IMG/VR virus record: IMGVR_UViG_3300032562_001167
Coordinates: 1 to 21,493 of that record
Length of the DNA: 21,493 bases
Source of the DNA: a virus
Strand: one strand, 5' to 3'
The notes beneath the pieces were generated by a model that ran no database searches, had not been told where the DNA came from, and worked only from the letters and a program-made list of their open reading frames with translations. This document shows, piece after piece, positions 6,187-21,282 of this stretch. A program made the position numbers and the translations under genes. The first letter of the stretch is position 1. Each line of letters starts with the position of its first letter.

Positions 6187-6915
6187 ATGCGTGATTACTT
6201 ATTAGACATCGTTAAAAACACACAGGGTCTGGACATCGATCTAGTCAAAATTACAGGCACAGATTCAGAAACATCGATCGAAGCACTAGCTGAAGATCGT
6301 TCAGTTATCGTACAGGGGAAATTAAATGGTCCAGTACCAGAATTCATTGGCACATTTGGTATGCCTAATCTAGGCAAACTAAGCACTATCTTAAGTATTC
6401 CAGAATACAAAGATGATGCTAAGATTTCAATTACCAAACAAGACCGCAATGGTGAAAGCGTAGCAGTAGGTTTACATTTTGAAAATGCCGCTGGTGATTT
6501 TAAAAACGATTATCGTTTTATGAGCCAAGAGATCGTCAATGACAAACTTAAAACAGTCAAGATGCGTGCTGTAAATTGGAACGTAGAATTCCAACCAACT
6601 GTAGCTAATATCCAAAGATTAAAATTTATGGCAAGTGCCAACGCAGAAGAAGCGAATTTCACTGCTAAGACTAACAATGGTAACTTAGAATTATCGTTTG
6701 GTGATCATTCAAGTCACGCAGGTAATTTTGTATTCCAATCAGGAGTTAATGGTACATTAAGCAAAGGTTGGAGTTGGCCAGTGGTAGCAGTAAGCAATAT
6801 TTTAAATCTAGCAGGTGATAAAACTGTTAAGATTTCAGATGAAGGTGCGGCACAGATCACTGTTGACACGGGATTAGCTACATATAACTTTATCTTACCA
6901 GCGCAAAGCAAGTAA
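6187..6915 (+). CDS. 45: Sliding clamp, DNA polymerase processivity factor (T4 gp45-like)
   Basis: 242 residues, similar to the 228 of T4 gp45. The segment IGTFGMPNLGKLSTILSI at about residues 57-74 followed by KDDAKISI aligns by eye with the gp45 region 'iydLngfLgILsLvnddaeI', and the C-terminus TYNFILPAQ has the strand pattern of a clamp C-terminal domain. Alternating strands and repeated 'D.l' turns fit the trimeric beta-rich clamp. It should encircle DNA and tether gp43; the polymerase C-terminal tail is a matching partner. It has a strong promoter and an AAGGAG site, as expected for an abundant protein. The clamp-loader genes 44 and 62, next to 45 in T4, are not in this window. Confidence 0.8.
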   Translation: MRDYLLDIVKNTQGLDIDLVKITGTDSETSIEALAEDRSVIVQGKLNGPVPEFIGTFGMPNLGKLSTILSIPEYKDDAKISITKQDRNGESVAVGLHFENAAGDFKNDYRFMSQEIVNDKLKTVKMRAVNWNVEFQPTVANIQRLKFMASANAEEANFTAKTNNGNLELSFGDHSSHAGNFVFQSGVNGTLSKGWSWPVVAVSNILNLAGDKTVKISDEGAAQITVDTGLATYNFILPAQSK

Positions 6916-7490
6916 TGGATAAATGGGCACACCTAGGGCATGCTCTAGGTGAATGTTGGATTGACAACAACAAAAATATCGCTTTTGTTCACATTCCAAA
7001 AAATGCCAGCAGTTTTGTGAAAGGTTGTCTGCTCAGCACTGGAAAATTCACGCATAGCAGTAGTCTCGTCCAAGCTGACAGATATCTTGTTACACTACGT
7101 GATCCTTTAGAACGCTGGATCAGCGGTATCACTCAATTTATGAGTAATCCTATCAACCAACATTTGACTATAGAACAACTGACTGATCGTTGGACTTTTG
7201 ACGATCACACTGAATTACAAACTTATTTCTTAAAAGGTATAGATTTAGAACAGTGTGATTTTATACGTGTTGATGATAATCTAAGAACCAATATCAAGTC
7301 TTGGATGGCAGTAAATGGTTATTATGTCACTGACATCGACCAAATACCAAATATCAATACTGGTGATCATCAAGCACAAAAACAATATGCCAATATCCTT
7401 GACTTTGACCAGGATTTAGTGTTAAAATTAACTGAACACTATGCGAAAGACTATGAATTAATTAACCGAGTAAAATTTTATGGAACGTGA
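6915..7490 (+). CDS. Sulfotransferase-like protein
   Basis: 191 residues, start in a TAATG overlap with the clamp gene. Residues 22-34 (IAFVHIPKNASSF) match the 5'-phosphosulfate loop of the sulfotransferase family 2 type ('f.HipK.agtS'), and residues 59-70 (VTLRDPLERWIS) match the 3'-phosphate motif ('..vRdP.eR..S'), with R62 and the Ser after the Trp as candidate PAPS contacts. The protein is short but includes both cofactor sites in the normal order and spacing, so transfer of sulfate from PAPS is plausible. The acceptor is unknown. The C-terminal third (DYELINRVKFYG) resembles the closing 'D..lY....' stretch of the family. It overlaps dpdA by 11 nt, indicating coupled expression with the base-exchange enzyme. 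Confidence 0.72.
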   Translation: MDKWAHLGHALGECWIDNNKNIAFVHIPKNASSFVKGCLLSTGKFTHSSSLVQADRYLVTLRDPLERWISGITQFMSNPINQHLTIEQLTDRWTFDDHTELQTYFLKGIDLEQCDFIRVDDNLRTNIKSWMAVNGYYVTDIDQIPNINTGDHQAQKQYANILDFDQDLVLKLTEHYAKDYELINRVKFYGT

Positions 7491-9777: not shown

Positions 9778-10017
9778 ATGAGCATGGCCAAACAAATATA
9801 TTATCATAATCTTCGTAACGATGATCCAGACACTATCCGTAGTCATATTGGATATCTTACAGAACAACACAAACGTCTCAAAGAAGACGTCAAGCGTGGG
9901 CATAGCTATTTCTTAGATGATGCTGAACTTGGTAAAATGAAACAACAAAAACTGATCATCAAGCGTGAAATTGAAATATATAAAGAAAAGCTCAAGGAGA
10001 TCACAGGTGAAGCGTGA
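9778..10017 (+). CDS. Small coiled-coil protein, DUF465-like
   Basis: 79 residues, starting two bases after the upstream stop (TAACATG). AGGAG at 9767-9771 serves as its ribosome-binding site. The C-terminal part, DDAELGKMKQQKLIIKREIE, resembles the DUF465/YdcH hairpin ('d.el.rLKk.KL.lKDei'), a short antiparallel helical protein. The N-terminal half (IRSHIGYLTEQHKRLKEDV) is also helical, so a two-helix hairpin is likely. The role is unknown; such proteins are usually accessory or dimerising. It sits between the oxygenase and a conserved unknown. Confidence 0.72.
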   Translation: MSMAKQIYYHNLRNDDPDTIRSHIGYLTEQHKRLKEDVKRGHSYFLDDAELGKMKQQKLIIKREIEIYKEKLKEITGEA

Positions 10018-10531
10018 TTATGCTACAGGTGTAGAAGAACAAGTGACCATGTTCACGGGTGTAGAGATCGAGCGGACTCCTGCATATGGTATGAAAACCT
10101 TATTTGTAGTGGGTGTCCAACCCTTTGAAAAACTGATCGAACAAGCTGGCATCTACAACTGCACACACATCTACTTTGGTGCTAATCAGAGTTTTCCAAA
10201 ATTACCTATGGGCAATATACCTTGGCGTCCGTGGGAAGAAATGATCATGCAGTGTTTGGCTGCAGACTTTTGGTGCACCTTGGATTTTGATGTAGCCTGC
10301 GTAGAAAATGTATTAGAAGGCCCGATGATTGAGCATCGACGTTTCATTCCACAGATTTCGGTAAAAATTCCATACTTGACACAACTTGGATATAATGCTA
10401 CAATTAAGCTAGACGATAAAGATTTTGATGCATCAAATCCAGGTGTTTGGTGTCATCGCCTACGTGATTTAACAACAACCGAGAGCTTTACTGATTGGGA
10501 TCAATATGGTAAAGATGAAATTATCAAGTGA
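10007..10531 (+). CDS. Conserved hypothetical phage protein
   Basis: 174 residues with a GTG start at 10007. The frame is open further up to an ATG at 9965, but that start would overlap the previous gene by 53 nt, while AAGGAG at 9994-9999 lies seven bases before the GTG. The protein has an alpha/beta look: KTLFVVGVQPFEKLIEQA, then THIYFGANQSFPKLP, FWCTLDFDVAC and a QISVKIPYLTQLGYNATIK segment, ending with NPGVWCHRL and FTDWDQYGKDE. No known catalytic motif was recognised. Cys and His residues (C59/H62 region, C108, C158/H159 in the long-frame numbering minus 14) could bind metal, but no canonical site is evident. It sits between the dpdA/oxygenase pair and the QueD-like gene, so it may belong to the same modification module. 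Confidence 0.72.
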   Translation: MKRDYATGVEEQVTMFTGVEIERTPAYGMKTLFVVGVQPFEKLIEQAGIYNCTHIYFGANQSFPKLPMGNIPWRPWEEMIMQCLAADFWCTLDFDVACVENVLEGPMIEHRRFIPQISVKIPYLTQLGYNATIKLDDKDFDASNPGVWCHRLRDLTTTESFTDWDQYGKDEIIK

Positions 10532-11250
10532 ATAAAACCCTAGCAGTTTGTGGTGATAGTTGGTTCGCATCTGATATCAAATACCCAGGTAAAAGTTTTG
10601 GTGAGATCCTTGCTGATCAAAATGGATTCAATCTATTGTCATTGGCCAGGGGTGGCTGTAGTAATTTTGCCATAGCATTACAAATTGATAAAGCCATTGA
10701 ATTGAAAGTTGATTATGTGATCGTTGGTACTACCACACCAGATAGGATCGAAATACCCATGCAGATACAAGGATATGACAAGCTCAAAGGCCTATCAAAC
10801 ATACAGTATGCGCCTCACCCTGATCTAAGTAGCCAACATGCTTTTTTGGTTGATCCAACGATCATCAGTGAAAGTATGAGCAATCTAACCATTGACTCTG
10901 GCAACGCAGAGTTTTATAATTTAACTAGTGATCAAAAGGCTGCGTTAAAAGCCTATACAGTTAATTTATATGATGCTGGTGTGAAACAACAGATTGACAC
11001 TTGGATAATCAGCGATGCCTGCAGGAGATTGACTGCAGCAACTATACCATTTTTAATCTGTATAGAAGCACTATTCAATGGTGAATACATAGCAGATTCA
11101 TATTGGATACCAGAAAAAAATAAAGTAACAGTTGAGGATTTTAGTTTATGGAATAGACAGTTATCGACTGCTAGATTCCATTATGATCCTGATACAGATG
11201 GAATTATTATCGCAAACTATCTACAAAAAAGATTAGAGGAATTATCATGA
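10528..11250 (+). CDS. SGNH/GDSL hydrolase-like protein (copy 1)
   Basis: 240 residues, GTG start at 10528 in a GTGA overlap. The N-terminus AVCGDSWFASD carries a GDS(L)-type block I with S11 as candidate nucleophile; SLARGGCSNFAIAL around residue 40 fits block II (conserved Gly, Asn), and YVIVGTTTPDR fits the strand and loop of block III. Near the C-terminus, RFHYDPDTDGIIIANYL has the 'H....G...IA..L' layout of block V, but the Asp three residues before His is not present. The protein could be an esterase or acetyl-transferring/removing enzyme of glycans, or a non-catalytic relative. Two other genes in the window (11689 and 17521) share the same layout, including the aromatic residue after the block I serine. 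Confidence 0.68.
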   Translation: MNKTLAVCGDSWFASDIKYPGKSFGEILADQNGFNLLSLARGGCSNFAIALQIDKAIELKVDYVIVGTTTPDRIEIPMQIQGYDKLKGLSNIQYAPHPDLSSQHAFLVDPTIISESMSNLTIDSGNAEFYNLTSDQKAALKAYTVNLYDAGVKQQIDTWIISDACRRLTAATIPFLICIEALFNGEYIADSYWIPEKNKVTVEDFSLWNRQLSTARFHYDPDTDGIIIANYLQKRLEELS

Positions 11251-11696
11251 TATTAGAAGAACGCGAAAAGATAGATAGAATTATTAAGGCCGCACAAAAG
11301 AAAGTATGGGTCACCTTTCAGAAAGAAGGCATTCATTGCTTTCCGGCAGCCGCAACTGACCCTAAACTAAAAACAGGAGACGAATATGATGTTTCGTTTT
11401 TGGCTAGTCCTCATCGTCACATTTTCCATTTCAGGGTGTGCATCGATGTGTTCCACGACGACAGAGAGCTCGAGTTCATCCAATTCAAACGCTGGCTTGA
11501 GTCCTTGTATGTATCGGATAGGAACATTTTAGATTTAAATTATCGTAGCTGTGAAATGATCGCAGATGAACTGTATCTTAAAATAGCTGAAAAGTATCCC
11601 AATCGTGACGTTCACATTGAAGTCAGTGAAGATGGTGAAAATGGTTGTTATGTTGAATACAATCATACTCGCCCTTACCAATCAGTAAATGTCTAA
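11247..11696 (+). CDS. queD: QueD/PTPS-like protein (putative 6-carboxytetrahydropterin synthase)
   Basis: 149 residues, ATGA overlap with the upstream gene and GAGGA before the start. The order of features follows the 6-pyruvoyl-tetrahydropterin synthase fold: IHCFPAA at 29-35 (QueD 'f.AaH'), SPHRHIFHFRV at 54-64 (QueD 'C..LHGH.y.v'), LEFIQFKRWLESL at 75-87 ('.DF..lK'), RSCEMIADEL at 100-109 ('PT.EnlA..i') and IEVSEDGENGCYVEY at 124-138 ('v.v.Et....a.Y'). H30, H56 and H58 could bind zinc, and E127 could hold the pterin. The catalytic Cys before HxH and the 'DH' of the usual active site are not clearly conserved; HDD at 70-72 may replace them. FolE and QueE in the window create the need for this step. 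The assignment is by pattern and context and is moderately sure. Confidence 0.55.
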   Translation: MILEEREKIDRIIKAAQKKVWVTFQKEGIHCFPAAATDPKLKTGDEYDVSFLASPHRHIFHFRVCIDVFHDDRELEFIQFKRWLESLYVSDRNILDLNYRSCEMIADELYLKIAEKYPNRDVHIEVSEDGENGCYVEYNHTRPYQSVNV

Positions 11697-12363
11697 CATA
11701 CTCTATGTAGGCCCCAGTTGGGCACATAGAAGCTATGATACCAACGAAGGTTCTGAACTTGACTACACCAATCTAGCACGTGAACTTGATTTAGATATCG
11801 TTGATCTATCACGTGTTGGTGCAGGCAACATGGAAATGTTAGAAAAAGTCAAAGGCTACACCGGTGATTATTTAGGTATCATATGGGTCTACGCTGAACC
11901 TGTGATTGATTTTACTAAACAAGAACAAGATCAATTTATCACGTCAGAGGATTGCGATAAACTAAGAGAAATTAAACATCAACAGATATTACAGGCCATA
12001 GCTGATTTAAACTGCCCTATAGCACTGATAGGTGCACATAGTGATGTTGGCTACTGTAATCATGCTAACATATCAATCATACATCCAAGCTGGCAGAGAT
12101 TTTTAGCTATGTCTACAGGAACCAATATAGAATATGCCTGGGGTGCCGATGTAGCACATAGAATATTCTTAGAAGAATATAGAAATATTAAACCAAGTAA
12201 AAAACTAGTAAATATGATTATATCAACTTTCAAATCTTGGCGTGAAATGGAATCAAAAAATGTATTCAAATGGGTACATCCAAATCAAAATGGTAACAGT
12301 TTGTTTGCCAAAGCGATAGAAAAAGATTTGACCTCTTGGATCAATCGTGTTAAAATTAGTTAA
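11689..12363 (+). CDS. SGNH/GDSL hydrolase-like protein (copy 2)
   Basis: 224 residues, starting eight bases inside the end of the QueD-like gene. The N-terminus ILYVGPSWAHRSYD aligns with block I of the neighbouring SGNH-like genes (S10 after Gly-Pro, followed by Trp). DLSRVGAGNMEML near residue 42 fits block II, YLGIIWVYAEPVID near residue 65 fits the block III strand, and VHPNQNGNSLFAKAI close to the C-terminus fits block V with its His. The Gly-Asn of the oxyanion hole is present in GAGN. Catalysis is not certain because the Asp preceding the block V His is missing. Role: possibly acyl-group removal from, or transfer to, a glycan. Confidence 0.65.
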   Translation: MSNILYVGPSWAHRSYDTNEGSELDYTNLARELDLDIVDLSRVGAGNMEMLEKVKGYTGDYLGIIWVYAEPVIDFTKQEQDQFITSEDCDKLREIKHQQILQAIADLNCPIALIGAHSDVGYCNHANISIIHPSWQRFLAMSTGTNIEYAWGADVAHRIFLEEYRNIKPSKKLVNMIISTFKSWREMESKNVFKWVHPNQNGNSLFAKAIEKDLTSWINRVKIS

Positions 12364-12392: not shown

Positions 12393-12629
12393 GTGGCACA
12401 ATCAGCATGGCTCAATAAATATCTAAGGATGAGCCCAGAAGTAAGACAAATATTCAACGACTTAGACGCATGGTGTAACTATTGCCGTTTCCGTATGATC
12501 AAGTATGATCCTGCTGATCTATACCGTAGTCCAGAGTATAAAGAATGGCAAGAGCGTCGTAAGAAAAGACAACAATGGCAGGCTCGTAATGGGACTGTTC
12601 GTAACAACAATTACAACAGAGGTCAATGA
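12393..12629 (+). CDS. Small basic hypothetical protein
   Basis: 78 residues, starting with GTG at 12393 behind a strong AAGGAG at 12380-12385. It follows a 29-base gap, the only real gap within the long run 6187-18183. The N-terminal half (WLNKYLRMSPEVRQIFNDLD) is helical, followed by AWCNYCRFRMIKYDPADLY with a CxxC pair at residues 27 and 30. The C-terminal half is Arg/Lys/Gln-rich and probably disordered. Similar short proteins occur in T4-like aquatic phages as far as I recall, but no function is known to me. Nucleic-acid or protein binding is a guess from charge. Confidence 0.72.
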   Translation: MAQSAWLNKYLRMSPEVRQIFNDLDAWCNYCRFRMIKYDPADLYRSPEYKEWQERRKKRQQWQARNGTVRNNNYNRGQ

Positions 12630-13714
12630 TGACTGTATTTCTAGTTGATCTAGAAGCTGTTGAAACTAGATACACAGGTCAATGGAAAACCCATGTACCT
12701 GAACTTTTATCTTCACAAGGACACGATGTATATGTTATTGAAGGACCTACAGACATACCTGCCGCTACTACTCCCGGCGCTTTTCTTAATTTTGGTGGCA
12801 CTAACATTTATAAAGCCCGCCAAGTTGAAGAGATGGGGCGTCTCTTTACCAGTGGCAACGTTAAGCAGGGTGATCATTTCTTGTTTACTGATGCTTGGCA
12901 TCCTGGCATTATTAATCTTAAATACATGTCCGAGCTGTTGGGAATAAAGGTAACAATACACGCACTTTGGCACGCTGGTAGTTATGATCCACAGGACTTC
13001 TTAGGTAGATTGATTGGTGATGCACCTTGGGTACGTCATGCTGAAGCTAGTTTTTATCAAGCTATCGATCACAACTATTTCGCCACAGACTTCCATATAG
13101 ACTTATTTGCTGAAACATTCAGTTACGTTAATAAAGGATCACCTAACACACTGTGGAAAAACAATCTATTAGAAAAGAAAAAGATCGTACGAACAGGATG
13201 GCCCATGGAATATATGCCAGAGATGTTTGAACCGTTTAAAGCTATCCCCAAACGTGATTTGATCATATTCCCACATAGACTAGCACCAGAGAAGCAAGTG
13301 GAAATATTCCGTGATCTTAAAGAGACTATGTATCAATATGAATTTATTGTCTGCCAGGATACGCCATTAAACAAGATACAATATCACATGCTGTTAGCAT
13401 CAGCTAAAATAGTGTTTAGTGCTAATCTACAAGAAACACTGGGTATCAGCTGTTATGAAGGTGCGTTAGTTGGTGCAGTTCCGTTAGTTCCAGATAGACT
13501 GAGCTATAGTGAAATGTATGATGATGTATTTAAATATCCTAGTGAATGGACTGAATCATGGGACAGTTATATCAAACATAAAGATGGTTTGATGGCATTG
13601 ATCGTTGCTCATATGGAAAACTATGAACAGAACTTACCTAAGATACAACAGCAAGCAGATAGTCTACACGACCATTTCTTTTCAGCAACTAACCTATTAG
13701 CTAATATTAAATAA
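12626..13714 (+). CDS. GT-B glycosyltransferase
   Basis: 362 residues, ATGA overlap with the preceding gene (a second ATG at 12629 is possible). The C-terminal domain is that of a retaining GT-B enzyme: KRDLIIFPHRLAPEKQVEIF at 209-228 (the donor-phosphate 'R...EK' site), ANLQETLGISCYEGALVGAV at 266-285 (the 'E..G....EA...G.P' loop) and PLVPDRLSYSEMY at 286-298. The N-terminal domain includes TDAWHPG at 88-94 and IHALWHAGSYDP at 111-122. The VPxRLSYxE block and the His-rich N-terminal loop resemble DUF3524-type enzymes such as tRNA-queuosine mannosyltransferase, which act on a 7-deazaguanine nucleoside. That likeness is by eye. It forms a 1-base TAATG junction with the epimerase gene. Confidence 0.78.
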   Translation: MMTVFLVDLEAVETRYTGQWKTHVPELLSSQGHDVYVIEGPTDIPAATTPGAFLNFGGTNIYKARQVEEMGRLFTSGNVKQGDHFLFTDAWHPGIINLKYMSELLGIKVTIHALWHAGSYDPQDFLGRLIGDAPWVRHAEASFYQAIDHNYFATDFHIDLFAETFSYVNKGSPNTLWKNNLLEKKKIVRTGWPMEYMPEMFEPFKAIPKRDLIIFPHRLAPEKQVEIFRDLKETMYQYEFIVCQDTPLNKIQYHMLLASAKIVFSANLQETLGISCYEGALVGAVPLVPDRLSYSEMYDDVFKYPSEWTESWDSYIKHKDGLMALIVAHMENYEQNLPKIQQQADSLHDHFFSATNLLANIK

Positions 13715-14646
13715 TGAGAATTTTTATCACAGGAACCAGCGGATTTATTGGATCACATCTGGTTAAAACGCTTGAAGACCGACATACCATATACAGCATG
13801 GAGTCTGATCTAGTAGACTTTGATGCTGTGCGTCAAGAACTGTTTGACTTTGATCCAGAAGTGATCGTGCATCTCGCGGCACGTACCGAAGTAGAAAAGA
13901 GTTTCTATGAACAGATCACGTTCAGCCAGATCAACTATGTAGGCAGTGTTAATTTAATCGATGCGGCTTGTAGTTTAAAGAATCTTAAAAACTTTGTATT
14001 TGCCAGCACCATGGAAGTCTATGGTTGGCAACCTGTCAGTGATGTGATCAAAAAGCAAGGTTACATCGACACGGTACCTGCATTTGATGAACACACTGTA
14101 CCAAATCCCAATGCGCCATATGCTGTGGCCAAATATGGTGTTGAAAAATATCTAGAATATGCACGTAGATCATTTAACTTGCCTTTCTGTGCTATACGCC
14201 AGACCAATACCTATGGTCGCAAAGAAAATGACTTCTTTGTAGTAGAACAGATCATCATGCAGATGTTGACTAACCCTAGTGTGGCTAAACTAGGTTATGC
14301 TACTCCCTATAGAAACTTCTTGTATATCGATGATCTTATCGAACTTTGGTTATTGATAGTAGAAAATCCAGATCTAGTCAGTGGCGGTAATCTCTTTACT
14401 ATCGGACCTAACAATGCTGTGCAGATCAAAGAACTGGCAAGGATCATAGCAGAAAAACTTAATTGGTCTGGCACTATAGAATGGGACGCTAAACCAGCAC
14501 GTCCAGGTGAAATTTATATATTAAACAGCACACATGACCTAGTGACTAGAGTCACTGGATGGGCTCCTAAAGTCAGCTTAAACGATGGTCTAGATCAAAC
14601 TATAGCCCATTGGAAAAAGGTATTAAATAAAGATAATAATGTATAA
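13714..14646 (+). CDS. NAD-dependent sugar-nucleotide epimerase/dehydratase
   Basis: 310 residues, extended short-chain dehydrogenase of usual length. The NAD-binding TGTSGFIGSH lies at residues 6-15, HLAARTEVEKS at 53-63 is the 'haAa...v..s' strand, FASTMEVYG at 96-104 holds the catalytic Ser/Thr, and PYAVAKYGVEKY at 135-146 carries the YxxxK pair Y136 and K140. RQTNTYGRKENDF and YRNFLYIDDLIELW are the substrate-domain signatures of the GalE/RmlB group. The enzyme probably epimerises or dehydrates a nucleotide sugar such as UDP- or dTDP-hexose. It sits between a glycosyltransferase and a radical-SAM gene, suggesting it makes the donor for that transferase. All catalytic residues are present. 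Confidence 0.92.
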   Translation: MRIFITGTSGFIGSHLVKTLEDRHTIYSMESDLVDFDAVRQELFDFDPEVIVHLAARTEVEKSFYEQITFSQINYVGSVNLIDAACSLKNLKNFVFASTMEVYGWQPVSDVIKKQGYIDTVPAFDEHTVPNPNAPYAVAKYGVEKYLEYARRSFNLPFCAIRQTNTYGRKENDFFVVEQIIMQMLTNPSVAKLGYATPYRNFLYIDDLIELWLLIVENPDLVSGGNLFTIGPNNAVQIKELARIIAEKLNWSGTIEWDAKPARPGEIYILNSTHDLVTRVTGWAPKVSLNDGLDQTIAHWKKVLNKDNNV

Positions 14647-16420
14647 TGTATACCTTTTTCAACCACAATATTCAGTAGAATTCCGCAAAGAAACCAATTA
14701 TTGGTTACCATACAGTGCAGGATGCCTTTGGTCCTACGCCAGTCAATTTTCCGAAATCACAGAAAACTTTGATCTTAAAGAATTAATCTTTAAACGTGAT
14801 CCACATCAAGCAGTATTAGATCGGCTAGACAACCCCAAACTATGTGGGTTTAGTTGTTACACATGGAATGAATACTATTGTATAGAACTGGCTAAGAAAA
14901 TCAAACAGCACTGGCCTGATTGTATTATCGTATTTGGTGGGCCTCAAGCTGGTGAACGCATGTCCGGTTATGATTTCATTGACAGTGTAGTGTTAAGTGA
15001 AGGTGAACTAGCATTTACTGAATTGCTTAAGACCATAATCGCAGGTGAAACAATCAAATCTGTTTATCCACGCAGTAGACTGAAAGACCTTGACATCCCT
15101 AGTCCCTATATCACAGGTGTTTTTGACAAGATAGTCAATGAACATCCTGATGCTATTTGGGCCATGACACTAGAAACCAATCGTGGCTGTCCTTATGCCT
15201 GTACATTCTGTGATTGGGGTGGGTTAACTTACAGCAAAGTAGCTAAATTTAAACTAGGTCGTATCATCGATGAGATGTCTTGGGCTGCTAAGAATCGTGT
15301 GGCTTATATATTCAATGCAGATGCTAACTTTGGTATCTTTAAAGAACGTGATCTTGAAATAGCCAAGATCATACGACAGGCCGCTGACAACAGCAGGATC
15401 GAAACAGTTAATTTACAATATGCAAAGAACAGCACAGAAACTGTATTTGAAATAGCTCGTATCATGGGACCATTAAGCAGAGGTGTCACATTCAGTATGC
15501 AGAGCATGCATGATCTGACATTAGACGCTATCAAACGTAAGAATATGGAAACTAACAATATCAGCTATCTATTAGAGCTTAGCCGCAAATATGACATCAG
15601 TACCTACTCAGAATTGATCCTAGGATTGCCTGAAGAAACTAAAGAATCTTGGATCACAGGACTTAATCAACTATTAGAACTAGGACAACATCAAGCCATT
15701 GATGCTTGGTTATGCCAACTGTTTACCAACAGTGAATTGGCCACGGAAGAAAGCCGTAGGAAATATGAAATATCCACAGTCATGGTCAAAGACTATATGA
15801 GCCTTGGTAAGAATGATGAGGATATCCCTGAATCGATCGAAATCATTAACAGTACCAATACCATGACCACTGAAGAAATGATTGACTGTTATATGTACAG
15901 TTGGATGATCATACAGTTCCATACCATGGGCTATACACAGATCATAGCCAAGTATGCTAGAAACATCGCTGGTATCGCTTATAGAACATTCTATGATGAA
16001 TTTTTTGATGCTGTCCAACAGGATCCTGTGTTTAAAGATCATTATACTGCTATGCGTTTTACAGTTAAAAATTATCTCTATTATGGCTTGTTAGGTAAAG
16101 ACAGTGCAGGTGGTCATGCTCTACACGCAGGATCATATAAATTCATGTACGAACACAAACATCAGGCGGCTAGGTTGGCATTAAGTGTACTACAGACATT
16201 GACCAGCGATGTGACTACAGACCTATTAGACTTACAGAATTCATTTACTGTTGACGCTAATGCGACTTATCCTATTAGTTTACAAACTAATTACAATGTA
16301 GAAACAGGATCTAAAACACCTACCAACTATACAGCTACATCTCGAGTAGAAGGCAAATTAGAAGACTTTTATGCTCTTAGGAGACAGGGTAGGATTAAAA
16401 ATCTATTGGTCACATCATGA
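14639..16420 (+). CDS. B12-binding-domain radical SAM enzyme
   Basis: 593 residues, overlapping the epimerase stop by 8 nt. Residues 1-150 form a cobalamin-binding-like Rossmann region (KLCGFSCYTWNEYYCIELAK, IIVFGGPQAGERM, VVLSEGELAFTELL). The radical SAM cluster motif is TNRGCPYACTFCDWGG with C184, C188 and C191 in the standard CX3CX2C spacing; AYIFNADANFG at about 217-227 and EIYSEL-like strands follow (TYSELILGLPEET at about 322-334). The C-terminal 200 residues are helical and of unknown role. Family members do methylations, ring rearrangements or C-C bond chemistry. No DxHxxG cobalamin motif is present, so binding would be base-off/His-off, or absent. The substrate is not known; the flanking epimerase and aminotransferase-like genes point to a sugar or a similar small molecule. 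Confidence 0.9.
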   Translation: MYNVYLFQPQYSVEFRKETNYWLPYSAGCLWSYASQFSEITENFDLKELIFKRDPHQAVLDRLDNPKLCGFSCYTWNEYYCIELAKKIKQHWPDCIIVFGGPQAGERMSGYDFIDSVVLSEGELAFTELLKTIIAGETIKSVYPRSRLKDLDIPSPYITGVFDKIVNEHPDAIWAMTLETNRGCPYACTFCDWGGLTYSKVAKFKLGRIIDEMSWAAKNRVAYIFNADANFGIFKERDLEIAKIIRQAADNSRIETVNLQYAKNSTETVFEIARIMGPLSRGVTFSMQSMHDLTLDAIKRKNMETNNISYLLELSRKYDISTYSELILGLPEETKESWITGLNQLLELGQHQAIDAWLCQLFTNSELATEESRRKYEISTVMVKDYMSLGKNDEDIPESIEIINSTNTMTTEEMIDCYMYSWMIIQFHTMGYTQIIAKYARNIAGIAYRTFYDEFFDAVQQDPVFKDHYTAMRFTVKNYLYYGLLGKDSAGGHALHAGSYKFMYEHKHQAARLALSVLQTLTSDVTTDLLDLQNSFTVDANATYPISLQTNYNVETGSKTPTNYTATSRVEGKLEDFYALRRQGRIKNLLVTS

Positions 16421-17004
16421 CAGCATTTAACAAAATAAAACAATTTGAAGACTATCTGAGTATATTCACAGGCGCACCGTATGTAGTCATGACTGACTGT
16501 TGTACGCATGCTCTTGAACTGTGTTTCCGCTATGATCAAGTACAAGAATGTCGTTTTACTCCTTATACTTATATCAGTATCCCCATGCTCATGCACAAAT
16601 TAAATATACGCTATAGCTATGCAGGACACGACAAACAATGGATCGGTGAGTATCATTTCTTTGACACACGCATTTGGGACAGTGCCAGATTGCTTAAAGA
16701 AGGTATGTATCGCGCAGGGCAGATGCAGTGTCTAAGTTTTGGCTACGATAAACCATTGGCTATCGGTCATGGTGGTGCTATCTTGTTAGATGATGAAACA
16801 GCTTATAAGAAATTAATACGTCAGCGTTATGATGGGCGTGACCTATCAATCAGCCCCTGGGAAGAACAGCAGACATTTGAAATGGGATACCATTATCGCC
16901 CAACCCCAGAAGATGCTGAGCAGGGATTGGAAAAAATTGGCAGTATCGATCAAACGCCTAAATACAAACAGTACCCTGATCTCAGAGAAATAACTATAAA
17001 ATGA
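16417..17004 (+). CDS. Half-length DegT/DnrJ/EryC1 aminotransferase-like protein
   Basis: 195 residues, while full DegT-type sugar aminotransferases have about 370. Residues 19-35 (GAPYVVMTDCCTHALEL) match the 'g.....v.sgT.AL.la' PLP-phosphate region, FTPYTYISIPMLMHKLNI at 47-64 matches the 'vp.yTf.at..ai...g' strand, D88 in WDSARLL corresponds to the Asp that contacts the PLP ring nitrogen, and CLSFGYDKPLAIGHGGAI at 105-122 is the lysine loop with K112 as the Schiff-base lysine. The protein ends soon after YHYRPTPEDAEQGLEKIGSI, which normally opens the C-terminal domain. It therefore keeps the PLP-binding large domain but lacks the rest. No frameshift remnant follows, as the next gene starts in an ATGA overlap. 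Confidence 0.78.
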   Translation: MTAFNKIKQFEDYLSIFTGAPYVVMTDCCTHALELCFRYDQVQECRFTPYTYISIPMLMHKLNIRYSYAGHDKQWIGEYHFFDTRIWDSARLLKEGMYRAGQMQCLSFGYDKPLAIGHGGAILLDDETAYKKLIRQRYDGRDLSISPWEEQQTFEMGYHYRPTPEDAEQGLEKIGSIDQTPKYKQYPDLREITIK

Positions 17005-17528
17005 TACTTAAATCAACAAAACTTGACTATGACTTTGGCATATTTTTAAATGCAGACTATTCTACACATGAAGGTAGTTGTATCAAACATCAAGTCTATG
17101 AACTAACAGACATACATGAACAATATGGCGGATTCCCTGATAGCTATTGTTTTGAAAATACCAAGATCAATCAACTTTGGTGGTCTGAAGATCAGATCGA
17201 CTATAAAACCATCGGTGATCAATTGGGCATTGATGTTGTTACTGTTAGCTCGATCAGACAACCACCCGGCTGTGTGATACCTTTACACAGAGATACATTC
17301 TATCAGATCAATAAACTCTATCCTGATCGCAAGGAAACTAAAGTGCGTGCTAACATCTATCTAGAAGATTGGGCATTAGGCCACTTTATACAATTCAACG
17401 ACACAGTAGACACACACTGGCATCAAGGTCAAGGTTGGATCTGGGACAGCGAAATACTGCATCTTGGTGCTAATGCTGGTATGACCAACAAGCACACACT
17501 ACAGATATCAGGATTCTTAAATGCGTAA
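17001..17528 (+). CDS. Aspartyl/asparaginyl-hydroxylase-like 2OG oxygenase
   Basis: 175 residues, ATG in an ATGA overlap. PPGCVIPLHRDTFYQINKLY at 88-107 has the HxD pair H96 and D98, and SEILHLGANAGMTNKHTLQI at 150-169 gives H154 as the third iron ligand, with K164 a candidate for 2-oxoglutarate binding. VRANIYLEDWALGHFIQFND in between forms the central strands, and QGQGWIWDS is the typical 'G....wd.' turn of cupin-like hydroxylases. The size fits a minimal double-stranded beta-helix. It probably oxidises a substrate made by the preceding radical-SAM/aminotransferase genes, but the substrate is unknown. It is unrelated in detail to the other oxygenase at 9009-9776. Confidence 0.75.
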   Translation: MILKSTKLDYDFGIFLNADYSTHEGSCIKHQVYELTDIHEQYGGFPDSYCFENTKINQLWWSEDQIDYKTIGDQLGIDVVTVSSIRQPPGCVIPLHRDTFYQINKLYPDRKETKVRANIYLEDWALGHFIQFNDTVDTHWHQGQGWIWDSEILHLGANAGMTNKHTLQISGFLNA

Positions 17529-18183
17529 GCTATGGGTGTTTGGCCATAGTTTCTGTTTGCCATTTAACTTAGAACACAAAGAACACTGTTGGGTAGATCT
17601 TTTAGCCCGTAGTCTCAACATACCATACAGTAATCTGTCAGAACCTGGTTCTGATAATCTTTTTATATATCATACTTATAGACAGGCCTTACCCGATATC
17701 AATTACAACGATCTAGTCATCATTGGGTGGAGCCACCCCAGCAGAAAATCATTTGTGCTAGACAGAGACAATCCAAAACATCTGGCGGTATGTGATCAAG
17801 GATTGATATACAAAACCAACACACAAGAATTTTTCCGTAGCAATAATCCGACTAATAAAGATGTGAACAATTGGTTGAATTTTAAACCCAAAGATCAAGG
17901 TTTGGCCTATTATGACATTTGGTTTAGAGATTACTACAGCGATCATGAACAAAGACTCAATTTCCAAAGCTATTCTGACAGCGTTGAATTGACCTGTCCG
18001 GGACGCTACATACCATTTTACTTCAGTGAAGAAAGCGTCAAAGGTATAGATTTACGTGAACCACATGCTGGGTTTATGACTGAATTCATTATTAAACATC
18101 AGATCACCCTTAGTTCCATAGACACACATATAAATGAGCAAGGACATGCTCTTTGGGCAGAACATCTACACAAATATATTTGA
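17521..18183 (+). CDS. SGNH/GDSL hydrolase-like protein (copy 3)
   Basis: 220 residues, overlapping the oxygenase by 8 nt. LWVFGHSFCLPFNLEHKEHC at 4-23 provides block I with S10, NLSEPGSDNLFIYHTY at about 38-53 resembles block II, and DLVIIGWSHPSRKSF at about 60-74 resembles block III. The C-terminus, SIDTHINEQGHALWAEHL, fits block V with an Asp and a His close together (D-x-H), the most complete catalytic set of the three SGNH-like copies in this window. It closes the run that began at the clamp gene. It likely acts as an esterase or O-acyl-modifying enzyme, or is a structural relative without activity. Confidence 0.7.
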   Translation: MRKLWVFGHSFCLPFNLEHKEHCWVDLLARSLNIPYSNLSEPGSDNLFIYHTYRQALPDINYNDLVIIGWSHPSRKSFVLDRDNPKHLAVCDQGLIYKTNTQEFFRSNNPTNKDVNNWLNFKPKDQGLAYYDIWFRDYYSDHEQRLNFQSYSDSVELTCPGRYIPFYFSEESVKGIDLREPHAGFMTEFIIKHQITLSSIDTHINEQGHALWAEHLHKYI

Positions 18184-18250: not shown

Positions 18251-18943
18251 ATGAGCAATAAAATCAGTGATATTATACTTGAACGTATCAGCAATGATGG
18301 TGCGAGATACTGGGCAGGTGATAATATATCAAAATATATCAAAAACGAAGAACGAGAACAGCTAGTAGACGAACTTACAGAAAAGTTTGAGGGTGTTCTA
18401 GACAGTTTAATCATCGATAGACATGAAGATCCAAATTCAAAAGGCACAGCACGTAGACTTGCCAAAATGTACTTGTATGAAATCATGGCAGGACGTTATG
18501 ATCCAGCGCCAGATGCTACAGCTTTTCCAAATGATAGTGAGGACAGATATGAAGGTATGTTGGTTGTTAGAAGTGAGCTTCGCAGTATGTGTAGCCATCA
18601 TCATCAACCTGTTGCTGGTGTCGCATATATTGGGATTATCGCTGCCCAAAAACTTATTGGACTTAGCAAATATACTCGTATTGCTCAATGGTGTAGTCGT
18701 CGTGGCACACTACAGGAAGAACTAGCCAATGACATAGCACGTGAAATAATGAAGGCCACAGGCAGTGAAAACGTAGCAGTCTACATACAAGCTACGCACG
18801 GTTGCTGTGAAAATCGTGGTATCATGGCACATAGTTCATTAACGCAGACTACAGTATTAAAAGGTGCGTTCAAAGATGATGGCAATACCAAGAAAGAATT
18901 CTTTGACAACATCAAACTACAACAGGAGTTTGCACCCAGATGA
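18251..18943 (+). CDS. folE: GTP cyclohydrolase I (FolE)
   Basis: 230 residues, close to the 222 of E. coli FolE. It converts GTP to dihydroneopterin triphosphate, the first step to queuosine-type 7-deazaguanines. RSMCSHHHQPVAGVAYIG at 111-128 corresponds to 'SmCEHHllPf.G.ahv.yip', KLIGLSKYTRIAQWCSRRGT at 134-153 to 'viGLSKlaRiv..farR.q', and ATHGCCENRGI at 181-191 to 'a.HmCm.mRGv'. Zinc ligands C114, H117 and C185 and the catalytic His pair H116 and H183 are kept. Two differences stand out: the Glu of CEHH is Ser here, and HMCM is HGCC. The N-terminal 60 residues are divergent. It is the first gene of a promoter-led run that includes queE. Confidence 0.93.
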   Translation: MSNKISDIILERISNDGARYWAGDNISKYIKNEEREQLVDELTEKFEGVLDSLIIDRHEDPNSKGTARRLAKMYLYEIMAGRYDPAPDATAFPNDSEDRYEGMLVVRSELRSMCSHHHQPVAGVAYIGIIAAQKLIGLSKYTRIAQWCSRRGTLQEELANDIAREIMKATGSENVAVYIQATHGCCENRGIMAHSSLTQTTVLKGAFKDDGNTKKEFFDNIKLQQEFAPR

Positions 18944-20213: not shown

Positions 20214-20434
20214 AATTATTAGAAAAACATGTTAAACTAATAGGATGGATCGCTAACATAGTGACCATCATTGGCGTCACACTTACAAGTTTTGACATAT
20301 ATCCACTTAATATTATTGTATTGAGTTTTGCCTGTTTGTTTTGGGTAATAACAGGAATGATATGGAAGAAACCAGAACTATGGACGCTTAATGCTATTAT
20401 ATTTTTAATTTATGTATACGGATTGATTATATGA
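20210..20434 (+). CDS. Small membrane protein (two to three TM segments)
   Basis: 74 residues from a TTG at 20210, which overlaps the preceding stop as TTGA with GGGA at 20200-20203 in front. The frame is also open from an ATG at 20183, but that start would lie 31 bases inside the phosphoribosyltransferase gene and add a polar, unconserved-looking nonapeptide. Hydrophobic segments are at about residues 8-26, 32-50 and 57-73 (IGWIANIVTIIGVTL, IIVLSFACLFWVITGMIW, LNAIIFLIYVYGLII). The layout resembles short phage membrane proteins of the DUF6552 kind. Function unknown. Its stop overlaps the queE start. Confidence 0.66.
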   Translation: MKLLEKHVKLIGWIANIVTIIGVTLTSFDIYPLNIIVLSFACLFWVITGMIWKKPELWTLNAIIFLIYVYGLII

Positions 20435-21282
20435 GCAAAATTAAAGTTTCGGAGATATTTTATTCAGCACAGGGCGAAGGACGCTTCGTAGGTGTACCTA
20501 GTGTATTTTTAAGAACATTTGGTTGTAACTTTACCTGTGGCGGGTTTGGTATGCCTAGAGGTCAGGCCAGCAAGGAACGTGAAGGCATCAATGCCAAATT
20601 ATACACACGCTATGAAGATTTGCCATTAGTATCCACAGGCTGTGACAGTTATGCATCATGGGATCCTAAATTTAAGAATCTCAGTCCAAGTTTAGAAACA
20701 CACATCATCGTTGAAAAGATGTTGCTGTTGACTCCAACACAGAATTGGCAGTTGAAGAATGGTAATGATGTCCATTTGGTCATCACAGGTGGTGAGCCAC
20801 TATTAGGTTGGCAACGTGTGTATCCAGAGTTATTACAGCATGAAAAGATGTACAATCTAAAGAACATTACATTTGAAACCAATGGTACCCAACCTTTGCA
20901 TGATGATTTTGCTGCATTCCTTAAACTATGGAATCGTAGTGGACGTGAATTAACATTCTCAGTCAGTGCTAAACTAAGCCCCAGTGGTGAGTCATGGGCT
21001 GATGCTATCAAACCAATGATCGTTAAAAGCTATGAAAAGATTGGCACAGTATTCTTTAAATTCGTAGTTGAGCGACCAGAAAACTTTGAAGAAGTTGATC
21101 GTGCTGTCGCAGAATATCGCAAGGCAGGCGTCAAAGGTGTAGTCTACATCATGCCTGTAGGCGGTGTTGTTAGTGTTTACAACGGCAACAAGTTTAATGT
21201 AGCAGATGAAGCCATGCGTCGTGGTTATTACTATAGTCCAAGATTGCATGTAGATCTTTGGGGCAACAGTTGGGGAAAATAG
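20431..21282 (+). CDS. queE: 7-carboxy-7-deazaguanine synthase (QueE)
   Basis: 283 residues, radical SAM enzyme that turns carboxytetrahydropterin into 7-carboxy-7-deazaguanine. EIFYSAQGEGRFVGVPSVFL at 8-27 is the family opening ('EiF.SiQGEG...G.p..FvR'), followed by TFGCNFTC with C32 and C36. The third cluster cysteine seems to be C71 in TGCDSYASWD, which corresponds to the 'CDTDF' of QueE, giving CX3CX34C in place of standard radical SAM spacing. ITGGEPLL at 113-120 binds SAM, FETNGTQ at 144-150 and FSVSAKLSPSG at 170-180 match QueE strands. The length is above the about 210-230 of bacterial QueE because of the insertion between C36 and C71 and a longer C-terminus. Start ATG in an ATGA overlap. 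Confidence 0.92.
   Translation: MSKIKVSEIFYSAQGEGRFVGVPSVFLRTFGCNFTCGGFGMPRGQASKEREGINAKLYTRYEDLPLVSTGCDSYASWDPKFKNLSPSLETHIIVEKMLLLTPTQNWQLKNGNDVHLVITGGEPLLGWQRVYPELLQHEKMYNLKNITFETNGTQPLHDDFAAFLKLWNRSGRELTFSVSAKLSPSGESWADAIKPMIVKSYEKIGTVFFKFVVERPENFEEVDRAVAEYRKAGVKGVVYIMPVGGVVSVYNGNKFNVADEAMRRGYYYSPRLHVDLWGNSWGK

Follow-up and report, generated by a model that had tools for sequence, protein, structure and literature searches.

Gene content of the locus

The window analysed here, a stretch of 21,493 bases (IMG/VR record IMGVR_UViG_3300032562_001167), is a fragment of the incomplete genome of an uncultured large freshwater phage. It carries the FolE and QueE members of a dpd-type system, a DpdA-like transglycosylase and, from position 12626 to 18183, a cassette of genes related to sugar chemistry. 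Among isolates, the DNA polymerase encoded in the window is closest to those of jumbo phages such as Phosso (51%), Atu_ph07 and GAP32, and a near-DNA search of cultured phages with the window gave no match. The cassette comprises six consecutive + strand open reading frames (ORFs) of 362, 310, 593, 195, 175 and 220 amino acids (aa), with successive neighbors sharing 1, 8, 4, 4 and 8 nucleotides (Table 1). A preliminary description of this DNA had counted seven genes, a number reached only by including the 78-aa ORF upstream, and had presented overlaps of 1 to 8 nucleotides as the sign of one unit. The overlaps exist, but the tight packing does not mark the six ORFs as a separate unit because co-orientation and similar overlaps run through most genes from position 836 to about 21.3 kb.

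Table 1. Features of the window, with the evidence for each assignment (GT, glycosyltransferase; PLP, pyridoxal phosphate; 2OG, 2-oxoglutarate).
Feature	Position	Strand	Evidence
GT4-like glycosyltransferase of GT-B fold, 362 aa; belongs to the core of the dpdA/que operon	12626..13714	+	AlphaFold2, Foldseek, neighborhood
Extended SDR, dehydratase type, 310 aa	13714..14646	+	PF01370, motifs
Cobalamin-dependent radical-SAM methylase, TokK/CysS/KedN5 group, 593 aa	14639..16420	+	Domains, TokK/CysS matches
Mini-DegT PLP aminotransferase, 195 aa	16417..17004	+	PF01041, invariant residues, AlphaFold2/Foldseek
2OG-Fe(II) oxygenase-like protein, 175 aa	17001..17528	+	H-x-D...H motif
SGNH-hydrolase-like protein, 220 aa; sporadic	17521..18183	+	Motif only
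DpdA-like DNA-guanine transglycosylase, 509 aa	7480..9009	+	Invariant motifs, weak profile alignment to DpdA2
HxH protein lacking the catalytic Cys, possibly QueD/PTPS-like; constant partner of DpdA and GT	11247..11696	+	Invariant residues
FolE, GTP cyclohydrolase I	18251..18943	+	NCBIfam FolE 3e-40, under its cut-off
QueE, 7-carboxy-7-deazaguanine synthase	20431..21282	+	PHROG QueE-like 2e-53
78-aa protein, usually in the gap between the HxH and GT genes	12393..12629	+	Conserved in relatives
Small conserved protein, DpdA-to-HxH stretch of relatives	9965..10531	+	Conservation

A constant glycosyltransferase and an optional tailoring module

Comparison with viral relatives separates the first gene of the cassette from the others. 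The exact gene order is found only in the near-identical contig L001, while about a dozen relatives have the same gene set with its order shuffled, likewise placed between the HxH gene and folE. In 45 HxH–FolE intervals chosen by FolE only, without regard to the glycosyltransferase, this enzyme is present in all 45, mini-DegT in 18, an SDR matching the window-type profile in 14 and the radical-SAM protein in 2. A set of 65 distinct intervals, partly chosen by the very cassette genes counted, gives 65 with the glycosyltransferase, 61 with mini-DegT and 9 with both SDR and radical SAM. Glycosyltransferase identity drops to about 25% between groups while the position between HxH and FolE is kept, and in some cassettes the glycosyltransferase stands alone, directly before folE. 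These counts (45/45 against 18, 14 and 2) place the glycosyltransferase in the core of the dpdA/que operon and the rest outside it, so the cassette is not the single unit first described. The SDR, radical SAM, mini-DegT and 2OG oxygenase make up a sugar-tailoring module that is optional and shuffled, and the SGNH gene is sporadic.

The glycosyltransferase, not the cassette, co-varies with dpdA. DpdA was found in 34 of the 37 DNA-polymerase relatives and a window-type radical-SAM protein in 5 of them, plus one 26% match; with DpdA present almost throughout the clade, the suggested correlation of the cassette with dpdA is rejected. Nor is the placement in the replication region a rarity: in this jumbo-phage group a glycosyltransferase, often accompanied by an SDR and a short DegT, is the rule there.

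Cultured phages show the same association. The glycosyltransferase family occurs in 16 of 50,697 phage records, which fall into five groups: the PA5oct/Paride group, Phosso, ACP17, X1 and BUCT-ZZ01. All 16 also encode the HxH protein together with DpdA or DpdA2, mostly in adjacent genes whose order differs: DpdA-GT-HxH in PA5oct, DpdA2-GT-HxH in ACP17, GT-DpdA2-HxH in X1, DpdA2-HxH-GT in BUCT-ZZ01 and HxH-GT, near folE, in Phosso. The transglycosylase is a homologue of the window DpdA in the PA5oct group (37%) and in Phosso (28%) and a DpdA2 homologue in the other three. Conversely, twenty viral contigs carrying radical-SAM relatives and/or mini-DegT, together with Synechococcus phage S-SCSM2R, lack a DpdA of the window family, and none of these 21 encodes the DpdA-linked glycosyltransferase. 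Weak glycosyltransferase matches in the PhiXhv and Ep032 phages, where no DpdA of the window family was found, were set aside; the one inspected (PhiXhv) adjoins a bacillithiol-type deacetylase.

The DNA of Vibrio phage nt-1 carries preQ0 and G+ (PMC6884629). Its DpdA2 belongs to the same family as that of ACP17, X1 and BUCT-ZZ01, and nt-1 is not among the 16 glycosyltransferase-positive records in the 50,697 searched. The presence of DpdA2 without this glycosyltransferase fits an optional hypermodification.

The radical-SAM gene has a neighborhood of its own. Among viral relatives at least 44% identical, the SDR usually lies no more than two genes away, and genes for DegT, oxygenase and glycosyltransferase are often close by and variously ordered. 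In most relatives the radical-SAM gene is followed by a 2OG/LIC12192 fusion ('sporadic carbohydrate cluster' families), which the window lacks. More distant relatives, some with mini-DegT, lie within clusters of other glycosyltransferases. A bacterial origin of the whole cassette was considered and rejected: radical-SAM relatives in 80 bacterial and archaeal loci are only 31–37% identical and often near other SDRs, and the whole set is absent from these loci. The combination occurs in phages and is thus not confined to bacterial polysaccharide loci.

Identity of the cassette proteins

The assignments first made by reading the ORFs were partly borne out. The glycosyltransferase has no Pfam match. 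Its AlphaFold2 model (pLDDT 83) adopts a GT-B fold nearest to GT4 enzymes such as BshA and MshA, with a Foldseek E value of 1e-7 to BshA and VIA Z scores of 22–24 to BshA, MshA and sucrose-phosphate synthase. The SDR, called an NAD epimerase at first, matches PF01370 (E 1e-39). Its STMEVYG and YAVAK motifs are kept in 19 window-type homologues and resemble those of NDP-sugar (nucleoside diphosphate sugar) 4,6-dehydratases; in three SDRs of other cassettes, by contrast, the motif is of GalE type, SSSASVYG.

The B12-type radical-SAM protein contains both Pfam domains, B12-binding and Radical_SAM. It matches TokK (7kdx) with E 1.6e-74 and CysS with 4.5e-43, reaches 1e-101 in a profile search, and scores 181.7 bits (2e-53) against the KedN5 family NF033712, whose curated cut-off of 700 bits it does not reach. 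C184, C188 and C191 of the CxxxCxxC motif are invariant, as is W76 in 17 sequences. By profile search and alignment, W76 corresponds to TokK Trp76, the tryptophan below the cobalt (PMC13331322).

The 'half' DegT aminotransferase is indeed short but not truncated. It matches PF01041 (E 1e-11); D27, D88, S107 and K112 are invariant across 31 homologues, the lysine aligning to that of NtdA, and its homologues have the short length in common. Modelled with AlphaFold2 (pLDDT 95), the protein corresponds to the core of GDP-perosamine synthase (Foldseek 1.5e-8, TM 0.72 on query) and related sugar aminotransferases over about 0.4 of the target length (TMt 0.31–0.41), the full-length two-domain DegT fold not being attained. 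Mini-DegT is a conserved family of about 195 aa that keeps the PLP lysine.

The last two assignments come from motifs. The 2OG hydroxylase has an H96-x-D98...H154 motif invariant in an alignment of 16 sequences and no significant library or PDB match. The SGNH-like protein shows, by eye, GHS and DTHxN-type motifs; it has few homologues and no Pfam or other family match, and the homologue at L075:3099-3755 has a non-significant GDSL match.

The deazaguanine core and the apparent absence of QueC

The DpdA-like protein has no Pfam or PDB match. Its D102-SGGFQ, D147-IP, NVLQG, GG and ISFD motifs are invariant, and it is collinear with DpdA2 of ACP17, X1 and BUCT-ZZ01 in a profile alignment of weak statistics. 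In L003, L018, L140, L157 and L159, the DpdA match is split in two inside a single longer open frame, which may reflect an in-frame insertion some tens of residues long.

The HxH protein has invariant H30, H56, H58, E103 and E128 and a partial profile match to a phage QueD (p 2e-4). It has no Pfam match, PF01242 included, and its assignment as QueD was withdrawn after Pfam, PF01242 and alignment checks. A PF01242 gene lies elsewhere in most large contigs; none is present in G089, a large close relative. HxH genes lie near FolE, QueE or DpdA in all HxH-positive cultured phages inspected, which makes the protein a candidate for a further deazaguanine step. The small conserved protein between DpdA and HxH is present at that place in most relatives and adjoins FolE in ACP17.

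QueC was not found in PA5oct, Phosso, ACP17 or BUCT-ZZ01, and the best match in X1 (E 7e-4) was below cut-off; the same search, as a positive control, finds QueC in Vibrio phage 2.275.O (2e-51). Three HxH-positive phages with no detected glycosyltransferase also gave no QueC, so the eight HxH-positive genomes tested contain no credible one, and 32 large contigs contain no full-length QueC. The host could supply these phages with preQ0 or QueC.

Several further genes surround this core. A sulfotransferase-like protein lies between the clamp and DpdA genes (6915-7490; PF03567 E 0.001, below cut-off); it has 37 distinct homologues, mostly at the same place, and could sulfate the product of the operon. 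Two proteins that are SGNH-like by eye, with no library hit, flank the HxH gene (10528-11250 and 11689-12363) and are found elsewhere only in L001. Several relatives carry a second B12 radical-SAM protein between FolE and QueE (L001:16128-17666, L009:7833-9896), or downstream of FolE (L065, L072, L206, L212, L232).

A proposed pathway and its alternatives

Sequence comparison shows that FolE, QueE, the DpdA-like transglycosylase, the HxH protein and the GT4-like glycosyltransferase form a conserved set. The preliminary description had offered modified DNA, virion glycan and host envelope as targets; the link between glycosyltransferase and dpdA, which spans phage groups, makes modified DNA the likeliest of the three, and the constant sugar-transferring neighbor is most simply read as acting on the deazaguanine base. 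The radical SAM, dehydratase-type SDR, DegT and oxygenase share one slot, and their predicted activities all fit sugar tailoring. That the cassette encodes enzymes to build and attach a sugar is supported. The chance is about even that the locus is an operon for 7-deazaguanine DNA modification into which a glycosylation branch is built. In this favored reading, held at the same even odds, the module makes a C-methylated, amino and/or oxidised NDP-sugar which the glycosyltransferase uses to sugar a 7-deazaguanine base in phage DNA.

In the proposed pathway, FolE, a QueD-type enzyme and QueE would yield 7-carboxy-7-deazaguanine, as their families suggest. Since QueC is missing from these phages, the carboxy base itself or host preQ0 would then be used. 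DpdA would swap guanine in DNA for that deazaguanine, and the HxH protein may process it. The SDR would generate a keto NDP-sugar for amination by mini-DegT, the TokK/CysS-type radical SAM would place one or more methyl groups on an unactivated sugar carbon, and the 2OG enzyme would oxidise the sugar. The glycosyltransferase would finally move the sugar onto deazaguanine in DNA, or onto the free base before insertion. The core glycosyltransferase would use whatever sugar each phage makes, with tailoring genes passing from one phage to another; such exchange would be expected where host enzymes that are sugar-specific favor the rise of new decorations.

Several observations weigh against this pathway. 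DNA as the acceptor is deduced from gene neighborhood and co-occurrence, and the predicted identity of the window DpdA from a weak alignment together with motifs. The modelled glycosyltransferase is similar to GT4 enzymes that act on small molecules and glycans; T4 AGT and BGT, or any DNA glycosyltransferase, are absent from the top fold matches listed, which allows no firm inference. The core system does not need mini-DegT or the other tailoring genes, since many members lack them. Most viral records are fragments, and another 29 FolE loci showed no upstream HxH gene; many of these are truncated where the contig ends, and a few, among them L352, L367 and L372, look different. Finally, and as the main weakness, radical SAM and mini-DegT also occur in phage glycan clusters without DpdA, and in the window these two could serve another product because they are at home there.

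This last point leads to two other explanations, each of which is unlikely. The cassette may decorate a virion protein sugar or a host envelope polysaccharide, the dpdA slot merely tolerating insertions. Homologues of the window-type radical SAM, SDR and mini-DegT lie amid many glycosyltransferases in L010, L014, L021, L032 and other contigs, the mini-DegT of S-SCSM2R adjoins glycosyltransferases, a radical SAM, 2OG oxygenases and an inosamine amidinotransferase, and the 2OG protein so often found after the radical SAM in relatives belongs to carbohydrate-cluster families. A glycan role accounts for the tailoring genes but not for the glycosyltransferase, which is absent from all 21 DpdA-less genomes and in cultured phages always accompanies DpdA or DpdA2. 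The other, similarly improbable explanation splits the functions: the glycosyltransferase would put an ordinary host NDP-sugar on DNA, while SDR, radical SAM, DegT and 2OG enzyme serve another product. The invariance of the glycosyltransferase beside a radical SAM in 2 and a mini-DegT in 18 of 45 intervals agrees with such a split, as do the cassettes reduced to the glycosyltransferase. Yet tailoring genes appear repeatedly in the HxH–FolE slot, overlapping the glycosyltransferase gene, and a variable sugar decoration predicts just such optional sugar genes beside a constant glycosyltransferase.

A soluble acceptor is very unlikely. Here the glycosyltransferase would resemble the cyanobacterial tetrahydrobiopterin glucosyltransferase in modifying a soluble pterin or deazaguanine metabolite, and DNA would stay unsugared. 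FolE and a PTPS-like protein are pterin enzymes too, and the fold matches include that tetrahydrobiopterin enzyme (5zer, E 4e-4), but it is no nearer than many other GT4 folds. Moreover, QueE and DpdA specify the deazaguanine branch, and the glycosyltransferase adjoins DpdA or DpdA2 in several groups.

The glycan clusters themselves are varied. Amidinotransferase-like genes lie beside mini-DegT or radical-SAM genes in L021 (4940-6049), L014 (11825-12808) and S-SCSM2R (L435; 10706-11665), suggesting guanidino sugars or aminocyclitols in some clusters.

Comparison with known systems and implications

Phage 7-deazaguanine DNA modification, known from phage 9g and Vibrio phage nt-1, uses FolE, QueD, QueE, QueC and DpdA (PMC6884629). 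The locus described here shares FolE, QueE and a DpdA-type transglycosylase in one operon. It differs in the absence of a credible QueC from the five glycosyltransferase-positive cultured genomes, and of a full-length one from the large contigs, in its constant glycosyltransferase and HxH partners, and in the added sugar-tailoring genes. The proposed glycosylation would work like that of T4, whose alpha- and beta-glucosyltransferases glucosylate hydroxymethylcytosine, in placing a sugar on a modified phage DNA base. In contrast to T4, the base would be a purine analogue placed by DpdA, the enzyme is GT4-like and the sugar would come from phage genes.

The tailoring enzymes also have relatives in other settings. 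The radical SAM shares the domain order, the CxxxCxxC motif, the position of Trp76 under the cobalt and a high-scoring sequence match with TokK, CysS and KedN5; it is phage-encoded and lies beside sugar genes, not in a carbapenem or cystobactamid pathway. Mini-DegT keeps the core PLP fold and the catalytic Asp, Ser and Lys of DegT/DnrJ/EryC1/StrS aminotransferases (GDP-perosamine synthase, ArnB, NtdA), yet it lacks their C-terminal domain and middle strands and forms a separate phage lineage. Cyanophage glycan clusters such as that of S-SCSM2R resemble the window in having mini-DegT, radical SAM and 2OG oxygenases side by side; in S-SCSM2R, neither DpdA nor the DpdA-linked glycosyltransferase was found.

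No report of glycosylated 7-deazaguanine DNA was found in the literature searched, though an earlier mention is possible, one key paper on deazaguanine derivatives lying outside the search. The system as a whole would be a new form of phage deazaguanine DNA modification. More tentatively, with a probability somewhat short of even, jumbo phages may carry a so far undescribed QueC-independent 7-deazaguanine, perhaps the 7-carboxy form, that is processed by the HxH protein and glycosylated by the GT4 enzyme, its sugar varied from phage to phage by exchangeable modules, which in this window include the B12 radical-SAM methylase and the minimal aminotransferase.

The DegT family of about 195 aa would be an unusually small PLP aminotransferase. 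If the proposal is true, it accounts for the retention of FolE and QueE without QueC, gives the HxH family its first role, and points to new DNA-acting glycosyltransferases and to a B12 methylase acting on sugar. The modification would then be predicted in phages already in hand: Paride, PA5oct, MIJ3, Phosso, ACP17 and BUCT-ZZ01. Two known strategies, deazaguanine replacement and DNA glycosylation, would be joined in one system, and a glycosylated base, if confirmed, would constitute a new class of hypermodified DNA.

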